Translations under genes and position numbers: made by a program
Shown: piece by piece, positions 19,194 to 27,391 of the stretch
Position numbering within the stretch: the stretch's first letter is position 1
Layout: each line of letters begins with the position of its first letter
Assembly (NCBI RefSeq): GCF_025244765.1
Contig: NZ_CP104209.1
Location: 558,001 to 622,000, forward strand
Length of the DNA stretch: 64,000 nucleotides
Source of the DNA: Empedobacter stercoris
Lineage (GTDB): Bacteria; Bacteroidota; Bacteroidia; Flavobacteriales; Weeksellaceae
Direction: 5' to 3'
Notes under the pieces: model-generated
What the model was told of the DNA's origin: nothing
Database searches by the model: none
The model's input: the letters and a program-made list of their open reading frames with translations, nothing else

Positions 19194-20075
19194 TTAAACA
19201 GTACATATATTCGTATTTGTACTGTTTTTCTTTTTGTACGATTTTGGTATTAAATCTTGTTGCTGGTGCATTTGCATCGGTGTTAAATAATAGTTTGACA
19301 AATGCGGTCTTAACTCATTATAAATCTCTACGGTTTGTTTGACCAAAATCTTTCTTGTATTCAAATCTACATTAAATTTATCAATATCATATTCCTGTTT
19401 TAAAATTCCATTGATTCTTTCGGCTATGGCATTCTCATAAGGATCTGATTCTTGTGTCATACTACAACGGATTTTATGCTTTTTCAATAGCTTTTGATAA
19501 TCATCGGAACAATATTGTAAACCTCTGTCCGAGTGATGAATAAGACTCTTCGGGTTTTCTTTTTTCAATGCCATTTTTAAAGCATTTAAACAAGATGCTG
19601 TAGCCAAAGAATCCGACACATCAAAGCCTACGATTTTCTTAGAATAAGCATCGGTTATCAAGCTTAAATAGGCTGGGTTTTCTCTGTTTCCCAAGTAGGT
19701 GATATCCGACACCCATACATTATTTGGTTTTCTGCATTGATAATCTTTAATTAAATTTTTATGTTTCTTAAAACGATGATACGAATTGGTAGTTTTGTGA
19801 TAACTTCTTTTGGGAATGATTAACAAATGGTTAGCCCTTAAGAAGTCAAAGAATTTGTCTCTGCCAATTCTTAAATTTTCAAGTTTCTCTTTCAAAAGAA
19901 AATACAGTTTCTTTCCACCCATTTTTGGATGAATCATTCGCAGCTCTGCTACCCAATCCACAACCTGCTGTGCATTTTGTTGCCGCTTTGCTCTTCGTTT
20001 CAAATGACGATAATAAACCTGTCGGTCAACCCCGAACAATTCACAGGAGAAACTTATGGTTTCTTTTTGTTCCAT
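19194..20075 (-). CDS. IS3-family transposase OrfB (DDE integrase)
   Basis: 293 residues. The N-terminal HTH_21 region (GVDRQVYYRHLKRRAKRQQ...HPKMGGKKLYFLL) leads into an rve integrase core with the DDE triad visible in VSDITYLG, HHSDRGLQY and NAIAERINGILKQEY. It starts at ATG 20075, in the -1 frame relative to orfA and overlapping it by 22 nt. In IS3 elements the active transposase is an OrfAB fusion made by -1 frameshifting; the heptamer C AAA AAG lies in the overlap (20063-20069). No internal stop, so the element may be active. Confidence 0.93.
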   Translation of the reverse strand: MEQKETISFSCELFGVDRQVYYRHLKRRAKRQQNAQQVVDWVAELRMIHPKMGGKKLYFLLKEKLENLRIGRDKFFDFLRANHLLIIPKRSYHKTTNSYHRFKKHKNLIKDYQCRKPNNVWVSDITYLGNRENPAYLSLITDAYSKKIVGFDVSDSLATASCLNALKMALKKENPKSLIHHSDRGLQYCSDDYQKLLKKHKIRCSMTQESDPYENAIAERINGILKQEYDIDKFNVDLNTRKILVKQTVEIYNELRPHLSNYYLTPMQMHQQQDLIPKSYKKKNSTNTNICTV

Positions 20076-20482
20076 TCGGAAAGAGTCGATAGTTCGGGTG
20101 GTGAGTTTTTTCGTATATCAATTTGATATTCCTCTTCGGCAAGGTTAATCATCATATCGAAAATAATGGCTTTTTTATCAGCCACATAAGCTTGTTTCTC
20201 AAGGAAAGCCTTCTGCTTTTGCAAAAGCTTTACTTGGGCTTCAAGCTCCATGATCTTTTGTTCTGGTGACTTTGGCATATTCGAGGGTGTTTGGTTCTCC
20301 CAATCAAAGGTACCAAATTTTCTGAGCCAACTCATAACTGTACTTCGGGCTTGGATGCCATACTTACGGCAAGCGCCCACAGTAGATAATTCCCCAGACT
20401 CAATTTCTTTTACAACATTCAACTTAAAAGACATACTGTAATCGCGCTGAGTACGTTTGACATAATTGCTTCTTTCTTCCAT
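20054..20482 (-). CDS. IS3-family transposase OrfA (helix-turn-helix)
   Basis: 142 residues. An N-terminal helix-turn-helix of the HTH_8/IS3 type (YSMSFKLNVVKEIESGELSTVGACRKYGIQARSTVMSWLRKFG) is followed by a leucine-zipper coiled coil (EQKIMELEAQVKLLQKQKAFLEKQAYVADKKA), the usual dimerisation part of OrfA. It recognises the element ends and overlaps orfB in the -1 frame. Confidence 0.93.
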   Translation of the reverse strand: MEERSNYVKRTQRDYSMSFKLNVVKEIESGELSTVGACRKYGIQARSTVMSWLRKFGTFDWENQTPSNMPKSPEQKIMELEAQVKLLQKQKAFLEKQAYVADKKAIIFDMMINLAEEEYQIDIRKNSPPELSTLSEWNKKKP

Positions 20483-20577: not shown

Positions 20578-21759
20578 TTACTCAAAAGCAATTATTGAAA
20601 GATTTGTATTTTCTATAATTTCTTTTTGTTTAAGCTTCTCAATATCAATTACACCAACTATATGGTTGTAATTTTTACTCTGATAACGTTCTTCTATTTC
20701 CTCAAAAAAACTTGAAACATCATCTGTTTGGTTTTCAAATCCAATGTAAACACGTTTTTTCCCATTTTGATTAAAAATACCCTCGTGTTGATTTTCATAT
20801 TTTCGAATCGAATATTTATAGTCATATTTCAACGCAGAAATATCACTCAAAACCGCTGAAGATGTAGGGAAACGCCCAGCTCCTTTTCCATATAAAAACT
20901 GCTCATCGGAAAGCGAACTTCCGATCAATACACCATTGTATTCATTATTTACTAAAGCAATCGTTTTATTAAGCTCAACAAAAGTTGGTAAAACTGTAGA
21001 CGTAATTTCTCCTGTTTGATGATTTATTTTTGAATTCGCAATTAGCTTAATTGTGTAATTTTTTTCGTTCGCATATTTAAAATCTTCAACTTTCAAAGCA
21101 GTAATCCCTTTACGAATAATAGCTTCTACTTCAATTTTTTTACCAAAAGCATGTAATGTAATAATCGACAATTTACTCGCTGCATCAAAACCTTCCACAT
21201 CTGCCGTTGGATCAGCTTCAGCAAAACCACTTTCTTGTGCTGCTTTCAAAGCATCTTGATACGATTCATTTTCATTCGCCATTTTAGTCAAGATGTAATT
21301 TGTTGTTCCATTCACGATTCCAGAAACATAATTCAATAAATCATTATCGAAATATTCTTCTAAATTTCGAATAATTGGTACAGAACCACAAACAGAGGCT
21401 TCATAAAGGAAAGAAACATTGTTTTGTTCTTGTAATTCTAATAATTCTTTGTGATGGTCAGCAATCAATTTTTTATTGGCACTTACGACATGTTTCCCAT
21501 TAACAAAAGCTTTTTTGATGATATCATAAGCTGCATCTGCATCAGAAATCAATTCTACCACAACATTTATTTCATCATCATTTAAAATATCTTCTGCATT
21601 TGTTGAAAATAATTCAGCTGGTGCATTTCGTGTTTTTGAATCATCTTTAATTACAATTTTTTTAATCGCTGCATTTAATTGTGGTTTCTCTTCTAAAACC
21701 TTATAAATCCCCTCTCCTACTACGCCAAATCCGAATAATCCGATATTTATTTTTTTCAT
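20578..21759 (-). CDS. hom: Homoserine dehydrogenase
   Basis: 393 residues. The N-terminal NAD(P)-binding fold begins INIGLFGFGVVGEGIYKVL (GxGxxG at 9-14). The catalytic part has the family signature VSGIVNGTTNYILTKM and the GFAEADPTADVEGFDAASKLSI block with the conserved Asp and Lys. It lacks a recognisable C-terminal ACT domain, although the ~60-residue tail (RKYENQHEGIFNQNG...) is degenerate. It makes homoserine from aspartate semialdehyde, feeding methionine and threonine. The SAM-I riboswitch in its leader (21879-21974) indicates control by SAM, tying it to methionine here. Confidence 0.93.
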   Translation of the reverse strand: MKKINIGLFGFGVVGEGIYKVLEEKPQLNAAIKKIVIKDDSKTRNAPAELFSTNAEDILNDDEINVVVELISDADAAYDIIKKAFVNGKHVVSANKKLIADHHKELLELQEQNNVSFLYEASVCGSVPIIRNLEEYFDNDLLNYVSGIVNGTTNYILTKMANENESYQDALKAAQESGFAEADPTADVEGFDAASKLSIITLHAFGKKIEVEAIIRKGITALKVEDFKYANEKNYTIKLIANSKINHQTGEITSTVLPTFVELNKTIALVNNEYNGVLIGSSLSDEQFLYGKGAGRFPTSSAVLSDISALKYDYKYSIRKYENQHEGIFNQNGKKRVYIGFENQTDDVSSFFEEIEERYQSKNYNHIVGVIDIEKLKQKEIIENTNLSIIAFE

Positions 21760-21878
21760 TTATTTATTTCTTTACTATTGATTTTATCAGAAAATGTGAA
21801 GAAAAAAGGAAATTTTAAAATAATAACAATTGAATCAGTTGTATTAAGAATAATACTGAATGATGGTTATCGTAGTTA

Positions 21879-21974
21879 TTTATCTTCCCTTAACAGGATG
21901 GAATTAGCACCTTGATTGTAATCAGGTTGCTAAAGTTTCTTAGGGCCATTTCCCTCCACTTTTCTTGATAAAAT
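21879..21974 (-). ncRNA. SAM-I riboswitch in the hom leader
   Basis: On the minus strand the region shows the S-box landmarks in order: GTGGAGGGA, GGCCC, a loop leading to AGCAACC, and GGTGCTAATTCC. A 6-bp P1 helix UUUAUC (21967-21972) / GAUAAA (21879-21884) closes it. It binds S-adenosylmethionine and turns methionine genes off when SAM is abundant. The 5' P1 strand AUUUUAUC can instead pair fully with GAUAAAAU at 21781-21788, 21 nt before the hom start. Confidence 0.93.
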
Positions 21975-22004
21975 ATAAAATTTTACTTGAGCTATTTCTG
22001 AGGG

Positions 22005-22037
22005 CAAATTTAGTACAAACTATTTCAATTTTCCAAA
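22005..22037 (-). promoter_or_regulatory. hom: Promoter of hom (TTTG-N21-TAAATTTG)
   Basis: On the minus strand a -33 TTTG (22034-22037) lies 21 nt from a TAAATTTG -7 element (22005-22012), a good Bacteroidota promoter. The transcript would start near 21998, about 24 nt before the aptamer. Confidence 0.6.
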
Positions 22038-22373
22038 TATTAAAACATACATTTGTTTATAATTTTCTAATTAAAGTTCTAATATGATTTAATTTCAGAA
22101 TTATTTTCTAAAATTTTTATTATTTAATGATTTGATTCTATAAAAATGATTAAAAAGTAAAAACAAATCTTCTAATTAATTCTGGAAAATTCAAAAAACC
22201 TAATAATATTCTAATTTAAAACACCTTAAATAAGTATTAAAGATATTTTTTACATCAATTAACGTATTGTAAGAATATTTTTCTATGTTAATGATTTTAC
22301 AACCAAAAATAATCAGGTTAAGTTTATGGAATGATTAACTTATTTTGACATGTCTTCTTCAAATAATAATTAT

Positions 22374-22386
22374 AATGATTATCATT
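22374..22386. promoter_or_regulatory. Fur-box-like palindrome upstream of metH
   Basis: AATGAT-T-ATCATT, a perfect 6-1-6 inverted repeat inside TATAATGATTATCATTTTT, which matches the 19-nt Fur box at about 15 positions by my count. It lies about 36-48 nt before the predicted start of the metH transcript. Low complexity of the region weakens the claim. Confidence 0.35.
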
Positions 22387-22408
22387 TTTTTATTTTAAAA
22401 GGAATGGA

Positions 22409-22416
22409 TAATTTTG
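22409..22416 (+). promoter_or_regulatory. -7 element TAATTTTG of the metH operon
   Basis: Exact TAnnTTTG match placed so that transcription would begin near 22422, the first base of the aptamer 5' P1 strand. No well-spaced -33 TTTG is visible. Confidence 0.5.
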
Positions 22417-22421
22417 CAGAT

Positions 22422-22522
22422 AACCTTATAAAGAATAGATGGAGGGATTAGGCCCGTAGATATCTTGGCAACCCAAAGGAAAGTTGGGTGCTACATCCTA
22501 CTCAAAAAAGAGAAAGATAAGG
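22422..22522 (+). ncRNA. SAM-I riboswitch in the metH leader
   Basis: S-box landmarks in order: GATGGAGGGA, GGCCCG, TTGGCAACCC, GGGTGCTACATCC. The P1 helix is CCUUAU (22424-22429) with AUAAGG (22517-22522). The 5' strand extended to AACCUUAU (22422-22429) is fully complementary to AUAAGGUU at 22544-22551, which ends 16 nt before the metH start. It should repress the operon when SAM is high. Confidence 0.93.
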
Positions 22523-22567
22523 ACTTACCTCGCAATTCTTCCCATAAGGTTTTAATAAAATAGTAAA

Positions 22568-23566
22568 ATGAAATTAAACGATATACTAAAAGAACGTATT
22601 GTTATTTTAGATGGTGCTATGGGAACAATGATCCAAAAGCACAATTTGCAAGAGGAAGATTACAGAGGAGAAAGATTCAGAAATTTCCATACATCTTTAA
22701 AAGGAAATAACGATTTATTGGTGTTAACACAACCACAAATTATCAAAGATATTCATAGAGAGTATTTAGCTGCTGGCGCAGATTTAATTGAAACAAATAC
22801 ATTTAATGCGAATATCATTTCGATGATTGATTATGATATGGTTGATTTAGTTGATGAATTAAATTCGGAAGCCGTTCGTTTAGCGAAAGAAGCTTGTGCG
22901 GAATATTCTACTCCAGACAAACCTCGATTTGTTGTTGGTTCTTTAGGTCCTACAAATAAAACAGCATCGATTTCACCTCAAGTGAATGACCCAAGTTACC
23001 GTGACATCGATTTTGACACTTTAGCTAATGTTTATTTTCGACAAGCTAAAACAATGTTAGAAGCAGGTGTTGATGTATTGTTAGTTGAAACTATTTTTGA
23101 TACCCTAAATGCTAAAGCAGCATTTTATGGAATTCAAGATGCGATCGAAAAAACTGGAATCAACGTTCCATTAATGGCTTCAGGTACGATAACAGATAAA
23201 TCTGGACGCACACTTTCTGGACAAACAACTGAGGCATTCCTTATTTCTTTAGAACATATTGATTTACTTTCAGTTGGTTTAAATTGTGCGTTAGGTGCTA
23301 CAGATTTAATTCCATACTTAGAAGTTTTAGCAGAAAAAGCTCCTTTTTATGTAAGTGCATATCCAAATGCAGGTTTACCTAATGCTTTTGGTGGATATGA
23401 CGAAACAGCAGAAATGATGCGTGAACATATTCGTCCATTTTTAGACAAGAAATTGGTCAATATTATTGGTGGTTGTTGCGGAACAACACCAGATCATATC
23501 AAATTAATGGCAGATTTAGCAAAAGAATACGAACCTCGAAAAATCAATGTTGCATGTCAAGCGTAA
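22568..23566 (+). CDS. metH: Methionine synthase, homocysteine-binding subunit (split MetH N-part)
   Basis: 332 residues that correspond to only the first domain of MetH, the zinc-containing homocysteine methyltransferase barrel: [11 protein letters not shown] at the start, [22 protein letters not shown] and the zinc ligands in [10 protein letters not shown] (about 308-317). In many flavobacteria MetH is encoded in two pieces, so this is a normal split and not a frameshift. It overlaps the second piece by 13 nt, which should couple their translation. It carries homocysteine to the cobalamin-bearing partner. Confidence 0.93.
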
Positions 23567-26220: not shown

Positions 26221-26295
26221 AAATTAGTCAGATTCTTCGACAAGCTCAGCATGACAACAAATCACGAGTTTCGAACTTCTGACTTCAAAAAAAAT

Positions 26296-26374
26296 GCGTT
26301 AGGGATTGTAGTGAAAATCCTTTGCTGACCAGCAAAGATTGTAACGAAAAGCCCGCCCGAAGGGAACGCCCTAA
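26296..26374. repeat. Structured intergenic repeat (metH-metF gap)
   Basis: The 214-nt gap between metH and metF is unlike its surroundings. It holds an outer TTAGGG (26299-26304) / CCCTAA (26369-26374) inverted pair, an inner 8-bp hairpin CTTTGCTG/CAGCAAAG (26320-26337), and a GC-rich GCCCGCCCGAAGGG block. I recognise the GCGTTAGGGATTG...CGCCCTAA framework as a dispersed flavobacterial repeat family; copy number here is not checkable. A TTCGACAAGCTCAGCATGAC segment (26235-26254) of the common REP-like type precedes it. Confidence 0.6.
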
Positions 26375-26434: not shown

Positions 26435-27391
26435 ATGAAAGTTACTGAACATATAGAACGTGCGAATGGAAAACCGTTGTTTTCTGTTGAAATTTTACCT
26501 CCTTTGAAAGGTCAAGATGTAAATGCAACGTTTAAAACTTTGGATCCTTTAGTGGAATTGAATCCTGCTTTTATCGATGTGACTTATCATCGACAAGAGT
26601 ATATTTACAAACAAAAAGAGAAGGGTTTGTTGAAGCGGTATCAAGTGCGAAAACGACCTGGTACAGTAGCGATTTGTGCTGCTATCCAAAATCACTATAA
26701 AGTTGACGCAATTCCGCATTTGATTTGTGGTGGTTTCACAAAAGAAGATACAGAAGATGCTTTGATTGATTTGAATTTCTTGGGCATTGATAATGTATTG
26801 GTTTTACGAGGAGATCCGATTAAATCTGAAAAATCATTTGTGCCAGAAGTTGGTGGACATGCGTATGCTTCAGAATTAATTGAACAAATTACTGCTTTGA
26901 ATACTGGAAATTATTTGGATGATGATTTGCAAGAATCGCATCCGATGGATTTTTGTTTGGGTGTAGCTGGTTATCCTGAAAAACATTTCGAATCGCCAAA
27001 CCTTGCAATAGATTTGCATTATTTGAAAAAGAAAGTTGAATTGGGAGCTGATTACATTGTGACACAAATGTTTTTTGACAATCAGAAATACTTTGATTTT
27101 GTCCAAAAATGTCGAGGAATGGACATTAACGTTCCGATTATTCCTGGAATAAAACCGTTAACAACTTTTAATCAATTGACTAAAATTCCACAAAATTTCT
27201 ACATCGATTTACCCGAATCTTTGTCGATGGAAGTGTTGAAAGCAAAAGATAAAGAAGCGATTAAAGAAATTGGCTTGGAGTGGTGCGTTCAGCAATGTAA
27301 AGAGTTAATGGAATTTGGTGTTCCTGGATTGCATTTTTATACGATGAGTAACTCGATTAATACAAAAAAGGTTGCTGAAGCGATTTTTTAA
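26435..27391 (+). CDS. metF: Methylenetetrahydrofolate reductase
   Basis: 318 residues forming the single barrel of bacterial MetF, a flavoprotein. Visible landmarks: FSVEILPP near the start (the conserved F-x-x-E-x-x-P), VTYHRQ, HLICGGFTKED, NVLVLRGDP, YIVTQMFFDNQKYFDFV and IPGIKPLT. It reduces methylenetetrahydrofolate to methyltetrahydrofolate, the methyl donor for MetH, so it belongs to the same riboswitch-controlled block, although a 214-nt repeat-containing gap separates it from metH and it might also have its own promoter. Confidence 0.94.
   Translation: MKVTEHIERANGKPLFSVEILPPLKGQDVNATFKTLDPLVELNPAFIDVTYHRQEYIYKQKEKGLLKRYQVRKRPGTVAICAAIQNHYKVDAIPHLICGGFTKEDTEDALIDLNFLGIDNVLVLRGDPIKSEKSFVPEVGGHAYASELIEQITALNTGNYLDDDLQESHPMDFCLGVAGYPEKHFESPNLAIDLHYLKKKVELGADYIVTQMFFDNQKYFDFVQKCRGMDINVPIIPGIKPLTTFNQLTKIPQNFYIDLPESLSMEVLKAKDKEAIKEIGLEWCVQQCKELMEFGVPGLHFYTMSNSINTKKVAEAIF

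Follow-up and report, generated by a model that had tools for sequence, protein, structure and literature searches.

In the classical S-box design, the 3′ strand of the aptamer helix P1 pairs with an arm of a terminator. The leaders described here share the aptamer family of these transcriptional SAM-I riboswitches (RF00162), and many of those before hom and metB/Y genes also carry a terminator-like hairpin; here, however, it is the 5′ strand of P1 that pairs, with a segment before the start codon. The closest known analogue is the TPP riboswitch of Escherichia coli thiC, for which the available text of PMC5234074 describes a long-range ON-state helix that excludes both P1 and a start-masking stem and forms an 'intramolecular lock' against ligand binding. 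The thiC anti-P1 stem, as far as that text goes, has the same wiring as the SAM-I leaders reported here. The two systems differ in that thiC carries a TPP aptamer and masks the ribosome-binding site together with the AUG, whereas here the aptamer is SAM-I, only the start-codon region is maskable, and the helix reaches P2 and, in metX, the upstream flanks. The lysC lysine riboswitch of E. coli, treated in the same source, is alike in its predicted large anti-P1 stem and its control of translation, and differs in its lysine aptamer and its reliance on a Shine-Dalgarno sequence. SAM-I(Xcc) of Xanthomonas shares the SAM-I aptamer, translational control and an anti-AUG segment that masks the start codon with SAM, but it uses Shine-Dalgarno/anti-Shine-Dalgarno pairing and senses uncharged initiator tRNA, and the available text describes no pairing with the aptamer 5′ arm (PMC7270179).

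According to the available text of PMC6847099, Shine-Dalgarno sequences are missing from Bacteroidetes mRNAs, whose initiation is tuned by structure near the start, and a 2007 survey of riboswitch mechanisms, in its available text, names Bacteroidetes once, for distribution (PMC2258182). The literature searched, which included few subscription journals and bioRxiv preprints, yielded no description of a SAM-I platform such as the present one, nor an account of riboswitch action on translation in a phylum reported to be without Shine-Dalgarno sequences. Judged by its sequences, the system appears to belong to the anti-P1 lock type already known, here on a SAM-I aptamer.

An alternative helix in the leaders of hom and metH

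The window, the whole stretch of 64,000 nucleotides of Empedobacter stercoris DNA that was analysed (C1:558001-622000), was searched with Rfam and contained two divergent SAM-I leaders, those of hom and metH. Both aptamers, as well as a third elsewhere in the genome, exceeded the curated covariance-model threshold of RF00162 (44.4 bits). We use 'anti-aptamer' for the 3′ arm of the helix that replaces P1; the -7 promoter element of Bacteroidetes is given as TAnnTTTG in the available text of PMC9723704. The features, in window positions, are as follows.

20578..21759, minus strand: hom, homoserine dehydrogenase, the regulated gene (NCBIfam NF004976, 354 bits, cut-off 205; Pfam PF00742)
21781..21809, minus strand: hom anti-aptamer (3′ arm of the alternative helix), containing GAUAAAAU and ending 21 nt before the ATG
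21877..21974, minus strand: SAM-I riboswitch aptamer of hom (RF00162, 77.8 bits, E 1.4e-16)
21946..21974, minus strand: 5′ arm of the hom alternative helix (P1 5′ strand, J1/2 and P2 5′ arm), from the unconstrained minimum-free-energy (MFE) fold
22005..22012, minus strand: TAAATTTG, a sequence match to the -7 element TAnnTTTG upstream of the hom aptamer
22409..22416, plus strand: TAATTTTG, a sequence match to TAnnTTTG ending 6 nt before the metH aptamer
22422..22436, plus strand: 5′ arm of the metH alternative helix (AACCUUAU, then AAGAAU at 22431-22436), from the unconstrained MFE fold
22423..22523, plus strand: SAM-I riboswitch aptamer of metH (RF00162, 60.4 bits, E 1.6e-11)
22535..22551, plus strand: metH anti-aptamer (AUUCUU at 22535-22540, a loop, then AUAAGGUU), ending 16 nt before the ATG
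22549..22579, plus strand: tentative weak hairpin at the metH start codon, found by eye (GUUUUAAU at 22549-22556 with AUUAAAC at 22573-22579)
22568..23566, plus strand: metH, homocysteine-binding half of methionine synthase, the regulated gene (partial matches to NCBIfam TIGR02082/NF007024; Pfam PF02574)

An earlier note on this DNA had proposed that the P1 5′ strand of each leader can instead pair, over 8 bp, with a segment upstream of the start codon. The segments were located exactly as proposed, AACCUUAU (22422-22429) with AUAAGGUU (22544-22551), 16 nt before the metH ATG at 22568, and AUUUUAUC (21974-21967) with GAUAAAAU (21788-21781), 21 nt before the hom ATG at 21759. Against 5000 dinucleotide shuffles of the linker per leader, the longest Watson-Crick match between the P1 5′ region and the linker was 9 bp in hom (p = 0.072) and 8 bp in metH (p = 0.042). 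With p-values no better than these, the 8-bp matches judged alone were rejected as evidence.

The predicted folds revealed a larger structure. In the unconstrained MFE fold of hom, 21974-21946 pairs with 21809-21781 over 27 bp with short interruptions, at -50.4 kcal/mol against -40.7 kcal/mol with P1 enforced, a cost of 9.7 kcal/mol for P1; in that of metH, 22422-22429 and 22431-22436 pair with 22544-22551 and 22535-22540, at -36.2 against -30.8 kcal/mol (a cost of 5.4 kcal/mol), all these energies omitting the SAM-I pseudoknot and SAM, both of which would favour the aptamer. Folding with and without a P1 constraint, a check that the earlier note had proposed, thus had both window leaders preferring the alternative helix over P1. 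The proposed extent held only in part: the 8-bp complements are present, but once G-U pairs and small loops are admitted the pairing runs past P1 through J1/2 to the 5′ arm of P2, which makes it a long helix broken by loops rather than an 8-bp repeat. Since the TAnnTTTG match ends so close to the metH aptamer, transcription of metH probably begins at the P1 5′ strand or close to it.

The third SAM-I leader of the genome (C1:1695494-1695597, minus strand; 85.2 bits, RF00162) lies 5′ of a TonB-dependent receptor gene (L001), identified as such through the Pfam Plug domain of its same-species counterpart in L016. That counterpart weakly resembles siderophore and B12 receptors, with every match far under its cut-off. 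SAM-I targets here are methionine/SAM-related genes, such as hom and metH in the window, and the receptor is the exception. The alternative helix was present in the MFE fold of the third leader as well (-40.9 against -36.5 kcal/mol with P1 enforced, a cost of 4.4 kcal/mol), although its longest plain Watson-Crick match was only 5 bp (p = 0.51, shuffled linkers). The helix was thus the unconstrained MFE fold in all three SAM-I leaders of the genome.

Around the two leaders, methionine synthase is split into two overlapping frames, the homocysteine-binding half (22568-23566) and a folate/B12/activation half extending to 26220, and a Flavo-1 RNA (RF01705, 50.5 bits) at 26293-26362 lies between the second metH frame and metF (26435-27391). 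Adjoining hom are two overlapping frames (19194-20482), which by eye resemble an IS3-type transposase pair.

Conservation and covariation across Bacteroidota

The comparison covered 221 leaders, of which 126 came from the family of the window, referred to as Weeksellaceae, and 95 from Bacteroidota outside it. The same-family set derived from 132 loci (L001-L052 and L133-L212), mostly the best-scoring among the matches listed, less five metX loci without a called start (L018, L022, L032, L157, L169) and one with a short linker (L211). From other families, 40 of the 55 loci L213-L267 and 60 more were taken, and two of these 100 without a called start and three with a short linker were dropped; starts outside the own family were called mechanically. 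The proteins scanned in relatives were one metX-like protein, whose matches to MetX models were all below cut-off, and one PLP-dependent Cys/Met enzyme.

In the shuffle test, the 5′ arm was offered each linker and 200 shuffled versions of it, and p ≤ 2/200 was taken as significant; seeds were unfixed and p varies slightly on repeat. The helix was significant in all 45 metX-like leaders, which belong to one family, and in 40 of 54 metH leaders (16/24 in the same family and 24/30 in others, spanning 9 of 11 families), 8 of 12 hom leaders and 11 of 20 same-family leaders of metB/Y (PLP-dependent Cys/Met enzymes), counts that are not independent, since the leaders are related by descent, and that are drawn from best-scoring aptamers. 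It was seldom significant before receptor genes (3/25), other-family metB/Y (1/42), 'metX?' (1/5) and unclassified genes (3/18). At the looser p ≤ 10/200, the same-family counts rose to 19/24 for metH, 11/12 for hom, 16/20 for metB/Y and 12/25 for receptors, and other-family metB/Y reached 9/42. Among leaders passing this looser threshold, the helix ended a median of 14 nt (metH), 17 nt (metX), 24 nt (hom), 35 nt (metB/Y) or 16.5 nt (receptor) before the start. By these comparisons, the platform appears common among metH leaders sampled across Bacteroidota, and it was present in all metX-like leaders tested of the one family. Loss of complementarity in orthologues that keep the aptamer, which the earlier note had named as evidence against the pairing, was encountered to some degree among hom leaders: the segment lies >100 nt before the start in L030 and L038, and the helix of L034 was not significant (33/200 shuffles).

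Covariation was assessed by offering each linker its own 5′ arm and the 5′ arms of other leaders of the same class. The own arm was better in metH (-6.3 kcal/mol, p = 4e-7 in the same family; -3.1 kcal/mol, p = 1e-6 in others), metX (-2.0 kcal/mol, p = 4e-6) and same-family metB/Y (-3.4 kcal/mol, p = 1e-6). No swap signal was found in receptor leaders (-0.5 kcal/mol, p = 0.14) or hom leaders (-0.1 kcal/mol, p = 0.77), the test having little power in hom because the sequences are so alike. Other-family metB/Y leaders were positive (-2.4, p = 8e-5) despite the near absence of significant helices among them in the shuffle test, and common composition or ancestry may account for some of this signal; the unclassified leaders also gave a signal (-3.9 kcal/mol, p = 0.027), and both results temper the swap test. 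Of three control regions (upstream, P2 3′/P3 5′ and P3/P4), only P2 3′/P3 5′ gave any p < 0.05, with a slight effect in metB/Y (p = 0.003) and another in receptor leaders (p = 0.04), and the target arm had mean own energies of about -16 to -25, compared with about -6 to -15 in the control regions.

Within the genus Empedobacter, 14 metH leaders, two of them from the window's species, displayed changes on both sides with pairing kept at predicted columns 1, 3, 8, 9 and 10, as read from one predicted duplex per leader; column 10 comprised six A-U pairs, six C-G pairs and two unpaired cases. The swap test on 13 of these 14 leaders gave -2.8 kcal/mol (p = 1e-4), with a gain of only 1.0 kcal/mol over the foreign mean for the window's own metH. 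Covariation between aptamer and platform is therefore seen here for SAM-I, whereas a recent RF00162 study (PMC13273304, 2026) reports none of significance in its available text, perhaps because it pooled lineages with different platforms.

Taken together, the fold, shuffle, swap and column tests recovered an alternative helix that excludes P1 and is conserved across species, and the MFE folds, shuffle and swap tests bore out the earlier note in its claim that the 5′ strand of P1 can find a partner upstream of the start codon. Its claim of compensatory evolution fared unevenly, in that it holds for metH across species, where columns changed on both sides and own arms outperformed swapped ones, but no covariation was shown in hom. 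The comparison of hom with metH, on which that claim had rested, is no proof of it, as these are two paralogous leaders that merely differ.

Start-codon masking and terminator-like hairpins

A helix containing the start codon (p ≤ 0.05) was found in 25 of 43 metX leaders, 7 of 23 same-family and 6 of 30 other metH leaders, 1 of 5 'metX?' and 3 of 18 unclassified leaders, and in 0/11 hom, 0/23 receptor, 1/20 same-family metB/Y and 2/42 other metB/Y leaders, identical leaders being counted once (215) in this test and in that of ensemble pairing. A swap test of the masking was positive in metX (p = 0.0013), metH (p = 0.015 in the same family and 0.0019 in others) and same-family metB/Y (p = 0.0016), and it gave no signal in receptor (p = 0.35), hom (p = 0.21) or other metB/Y leaders (p = 0.12), the lowest p of a coding-region control being 0.076. 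Two further measures were weaker. Masking duplex energy compared with shuffled linkers (p ≤ 2/200) was significant in 19/45 metX, 3/24 same-family and 0/30 other metH, 0/12 hom, 1/25 receptor, 1/20 same-family and 2/42 other metB/Y leaders, and ensemble pairing of the start (p ≤ 0.05) in 25/43 metX, 5/23 and 6/30 metH, 0/11 hom and 0/23 receptor leaders.

At the window loci and the third leader there was no start masking beyond that of shuffles (p = 0.66 for hom, 0.73 for metH and 0.78 for the third leader), and in ensemble pairing 75, 79 and 97 of 100 shuffles, respectively, were as high. Start masking as a universal output was accordingly rejected, three tests backing it in metX and a subset of metH and not in hom, receptor or window loci. 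The involvement of the same segment in start masking, as would be expected of a thiC-type lock, was likewise supported in metX and part of metH and not in the window's hom and metH or the third leader. A block of initiation by the freed segment, which the earlier note had named as a requirement for SAM repression, is compatible with metX-like and part of the metH leaders of relatives, but gained no support at the window loci. The weak metH hairpin at 22549..22579 gained no support from the start-masking tests (ensemble pairing and start-codon helix against shuffles) and is tentatively regarded as a degenerate form of the stem seen in some relatives.

Where masking was found, differing sequences kept the start paired, as in GCAACAU/AUGUUGC (metX, L006), GUAGCAU/AUGCUAC (metX, L024) and CAUUUCAAU/AUUGAAAUG (L142). 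In one family with GUG starts, four metH leaders pair as AUCACUCU/AGAGUGAU (L309) or as close variants of it (p = 0.01-0.04), and by the start-codon-helix measure the start of a fifth was not paired. In metX leaders with a UUG start, segments resembling AUUUUCAAUUUU pair with AAAAUUGAAAA. The metX gene in most leaders such as L012, L143 and L182 appears to start with UUG, inside the masking hairpin.

A terminator-like hairpin was present in 7 of 12 hom, 16 of 20 same-family metB/Y, 16 of 42 other metB/Y and 12 of 18 unclassified leaders, and by the script's definition it was rare or absent in 'metX?' (1/5), receptor (1/25), metH (0/54) and metX (0/45) leaders. The term 'translational switch', used by the earlier note, is therefore too narrow for the hom and same-family metB/Y leaders with such hairpins. 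No intrinsic terminator of the S-box kind was found 3′ of the aptamer at the window's hom and metH. Given that 7 of 10 hom leaders of other species carry a terminator-like hairpin, the hom leader of the window may have lost its own. In L158, L173 and other metB/Y leaders, the P1 3′ strand was by eye complementary to the 5′ arm of the terminator-like hairpin, as in a classical antiterminator, and both P1 strands may have an alternative partner in such leaders.

A proposed locking anti-aptamer and competing explanations

We consider it probable, at about 0.72, that these are SAM-I riboswitches whose expression platform rests on an anti-aptamer, with the SAM-free helix serving as an ON lock and with a variable OFF step. 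Comparison of leaders argues for the existence, extent and conservation of the helix and for start masking in metX and some metH; from these we infer the ON/OFF direction, SAM dependence and timing. The anti-aptamer typically ends 14-35 nt before the start (class medians) and complements the opening 20-30 nt of the aptamer region. In the absence of SAM, it would capture the 5′ arm once the leader is complete, dismantling P1 and P2 and leaving the start free (ON). SAM bound early in transcription would hold the 5′ arm in P1/P2 and leave the anti-aptamer free, which in metX-like and part of the metH leaders would pair with the start-codon region and mask the start (OFF). Most related hom and same-family metB/Y leaders have a terminator-like hairpin between aptamer and anti-aptamer; there the decision would fall during transcription, and the role of the helix would be to lock the RNA that has been read through. 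Which state is ON had been left unclear by the earlier note and can now be answered in part, the alternative helix being most likely the SAM-free ON state, given that in metX-like leaders and some metH leaders of relatives it is the start codon with which the freed segment pairs. The window's hom and metH keep the helix, and their OFF step might proceed via Rho, or regulation might have been lost.

A reading that overlaps with this one, and differs in output, is that the helix serves transcription, as a post-decision lock on read-through RNA, and that in terminator-less leaders the freed anti-aptamer recruits Rho with SAM. The anti-aptamer is pyrimidine-rich, as the complement of a purine-rich 5′ arm, and thiC couples its anti-P1 lock to Rho termination (PMC5234074, available text). 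The terminator-like hairpins in the linkers of 7/12 hom and 16/20 same-family metB/Y leaders and the lack of start masking at the window's hom and metH also point this way, whereas the absence of such hairpins, by the script's definition, from all 45 metX-like and 54 metH leaders, and start-codon pairing that covaries in metX and part of metH, do not; we regard this reading as possible, at odds distinctly under even. A role at the mRNA 5′ end, the long-range stem forming a closed end that slows decay at low SAM, would suit transcripts beginning at or near the P1 5′ strand. Where found, TAnnTTTG indeed ends a median of 6 nt (metH, 38/54) or 4 nt (receptor, 22/26) before the aptamer, but in metX (42/45), hom (12/12) and metB/Y (35/64) the median is 28-30 nt upstream, which implies a 5′ tail, and metX has the strongest helix despite that tail, so we consider this role unlikely.

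Inverse logic appears very unlikely; under it, the long helix close to the start would hold back initiation until SAM opened it and so switched the genes on. The regulated genes make methionine, and SAM feedback on such genes is repressive in known SAM-I switches; moreover, in metX and some metH leaders the start codon is covered by the freed segment, and many hom and metB/Y leaders carry a terminator-like hairpin. These observations stand against the helix ending, at class medians of 14-35 nt before the start, near enough in some leaders to hinder the 30S subunit, and against the P1-enforced fold of the window's metH, which leaves the start open. Chance complementarity of AT-rich, purine-rich/pyrimidine-rich leader sequence would account for the bare 8-9 bp matches, which reach only p = 0.07 and 0.04, but it is contradicted by the shuffle, swap and control-region tests and by the columns changed on both sides, and is scarcely credible.

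As a design, the anti-aptamer lock with a variable OFF step is concrete and can be put to the test: in the SAM-free state the anti-aptamer would open up the sensor, and in metX and some metH leaders it would block access to the start codon once SAM has bound. This may indicate how bacteria whose mRNAs have no ribosome-landing sequence of the usual kind could still regulate genes by a sensor RNA. More tentatively, and at somewhat under even odds, Bacteroidota may use a general platform in place of Shine-Dalgarno masking, in which an anti-aptamer toggles between the aptamer 5′ arm and the start region and the two partners have evolved alike, as exemplified by UUGAAAAUG in the 5′ arm and UUGAAAAC at the metX start of L012. 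Such a platform would not be confined to a single aptamer class, given the similar layout of TPP leaders in the genus, a likeness that is only a lead. In these leaders (L328-L343, L335 being from the genome of the window), the 5′ aptamer arm, for example GGCUUUAGGGGUAUUCU or AAUGGGGU, was complementary to a segment before the start, and the segment UCCUCAUCA of L335 can by eye also pair with the start AUGAUGAAGGA. Shuffle z-scores for this layout ranged from +0.3 to -2.6 across the 16 loci, with -0.6 for L335.

Some RF00162 matches in other families (L292, L294, L302, L304 and L306) diverge in the 5′ arm (GAUUUAUAAAGAAG..GGCGAGA), are set apart from metB/Y-like genes by long spacers, and may represent a SAM-I subtype of their own.
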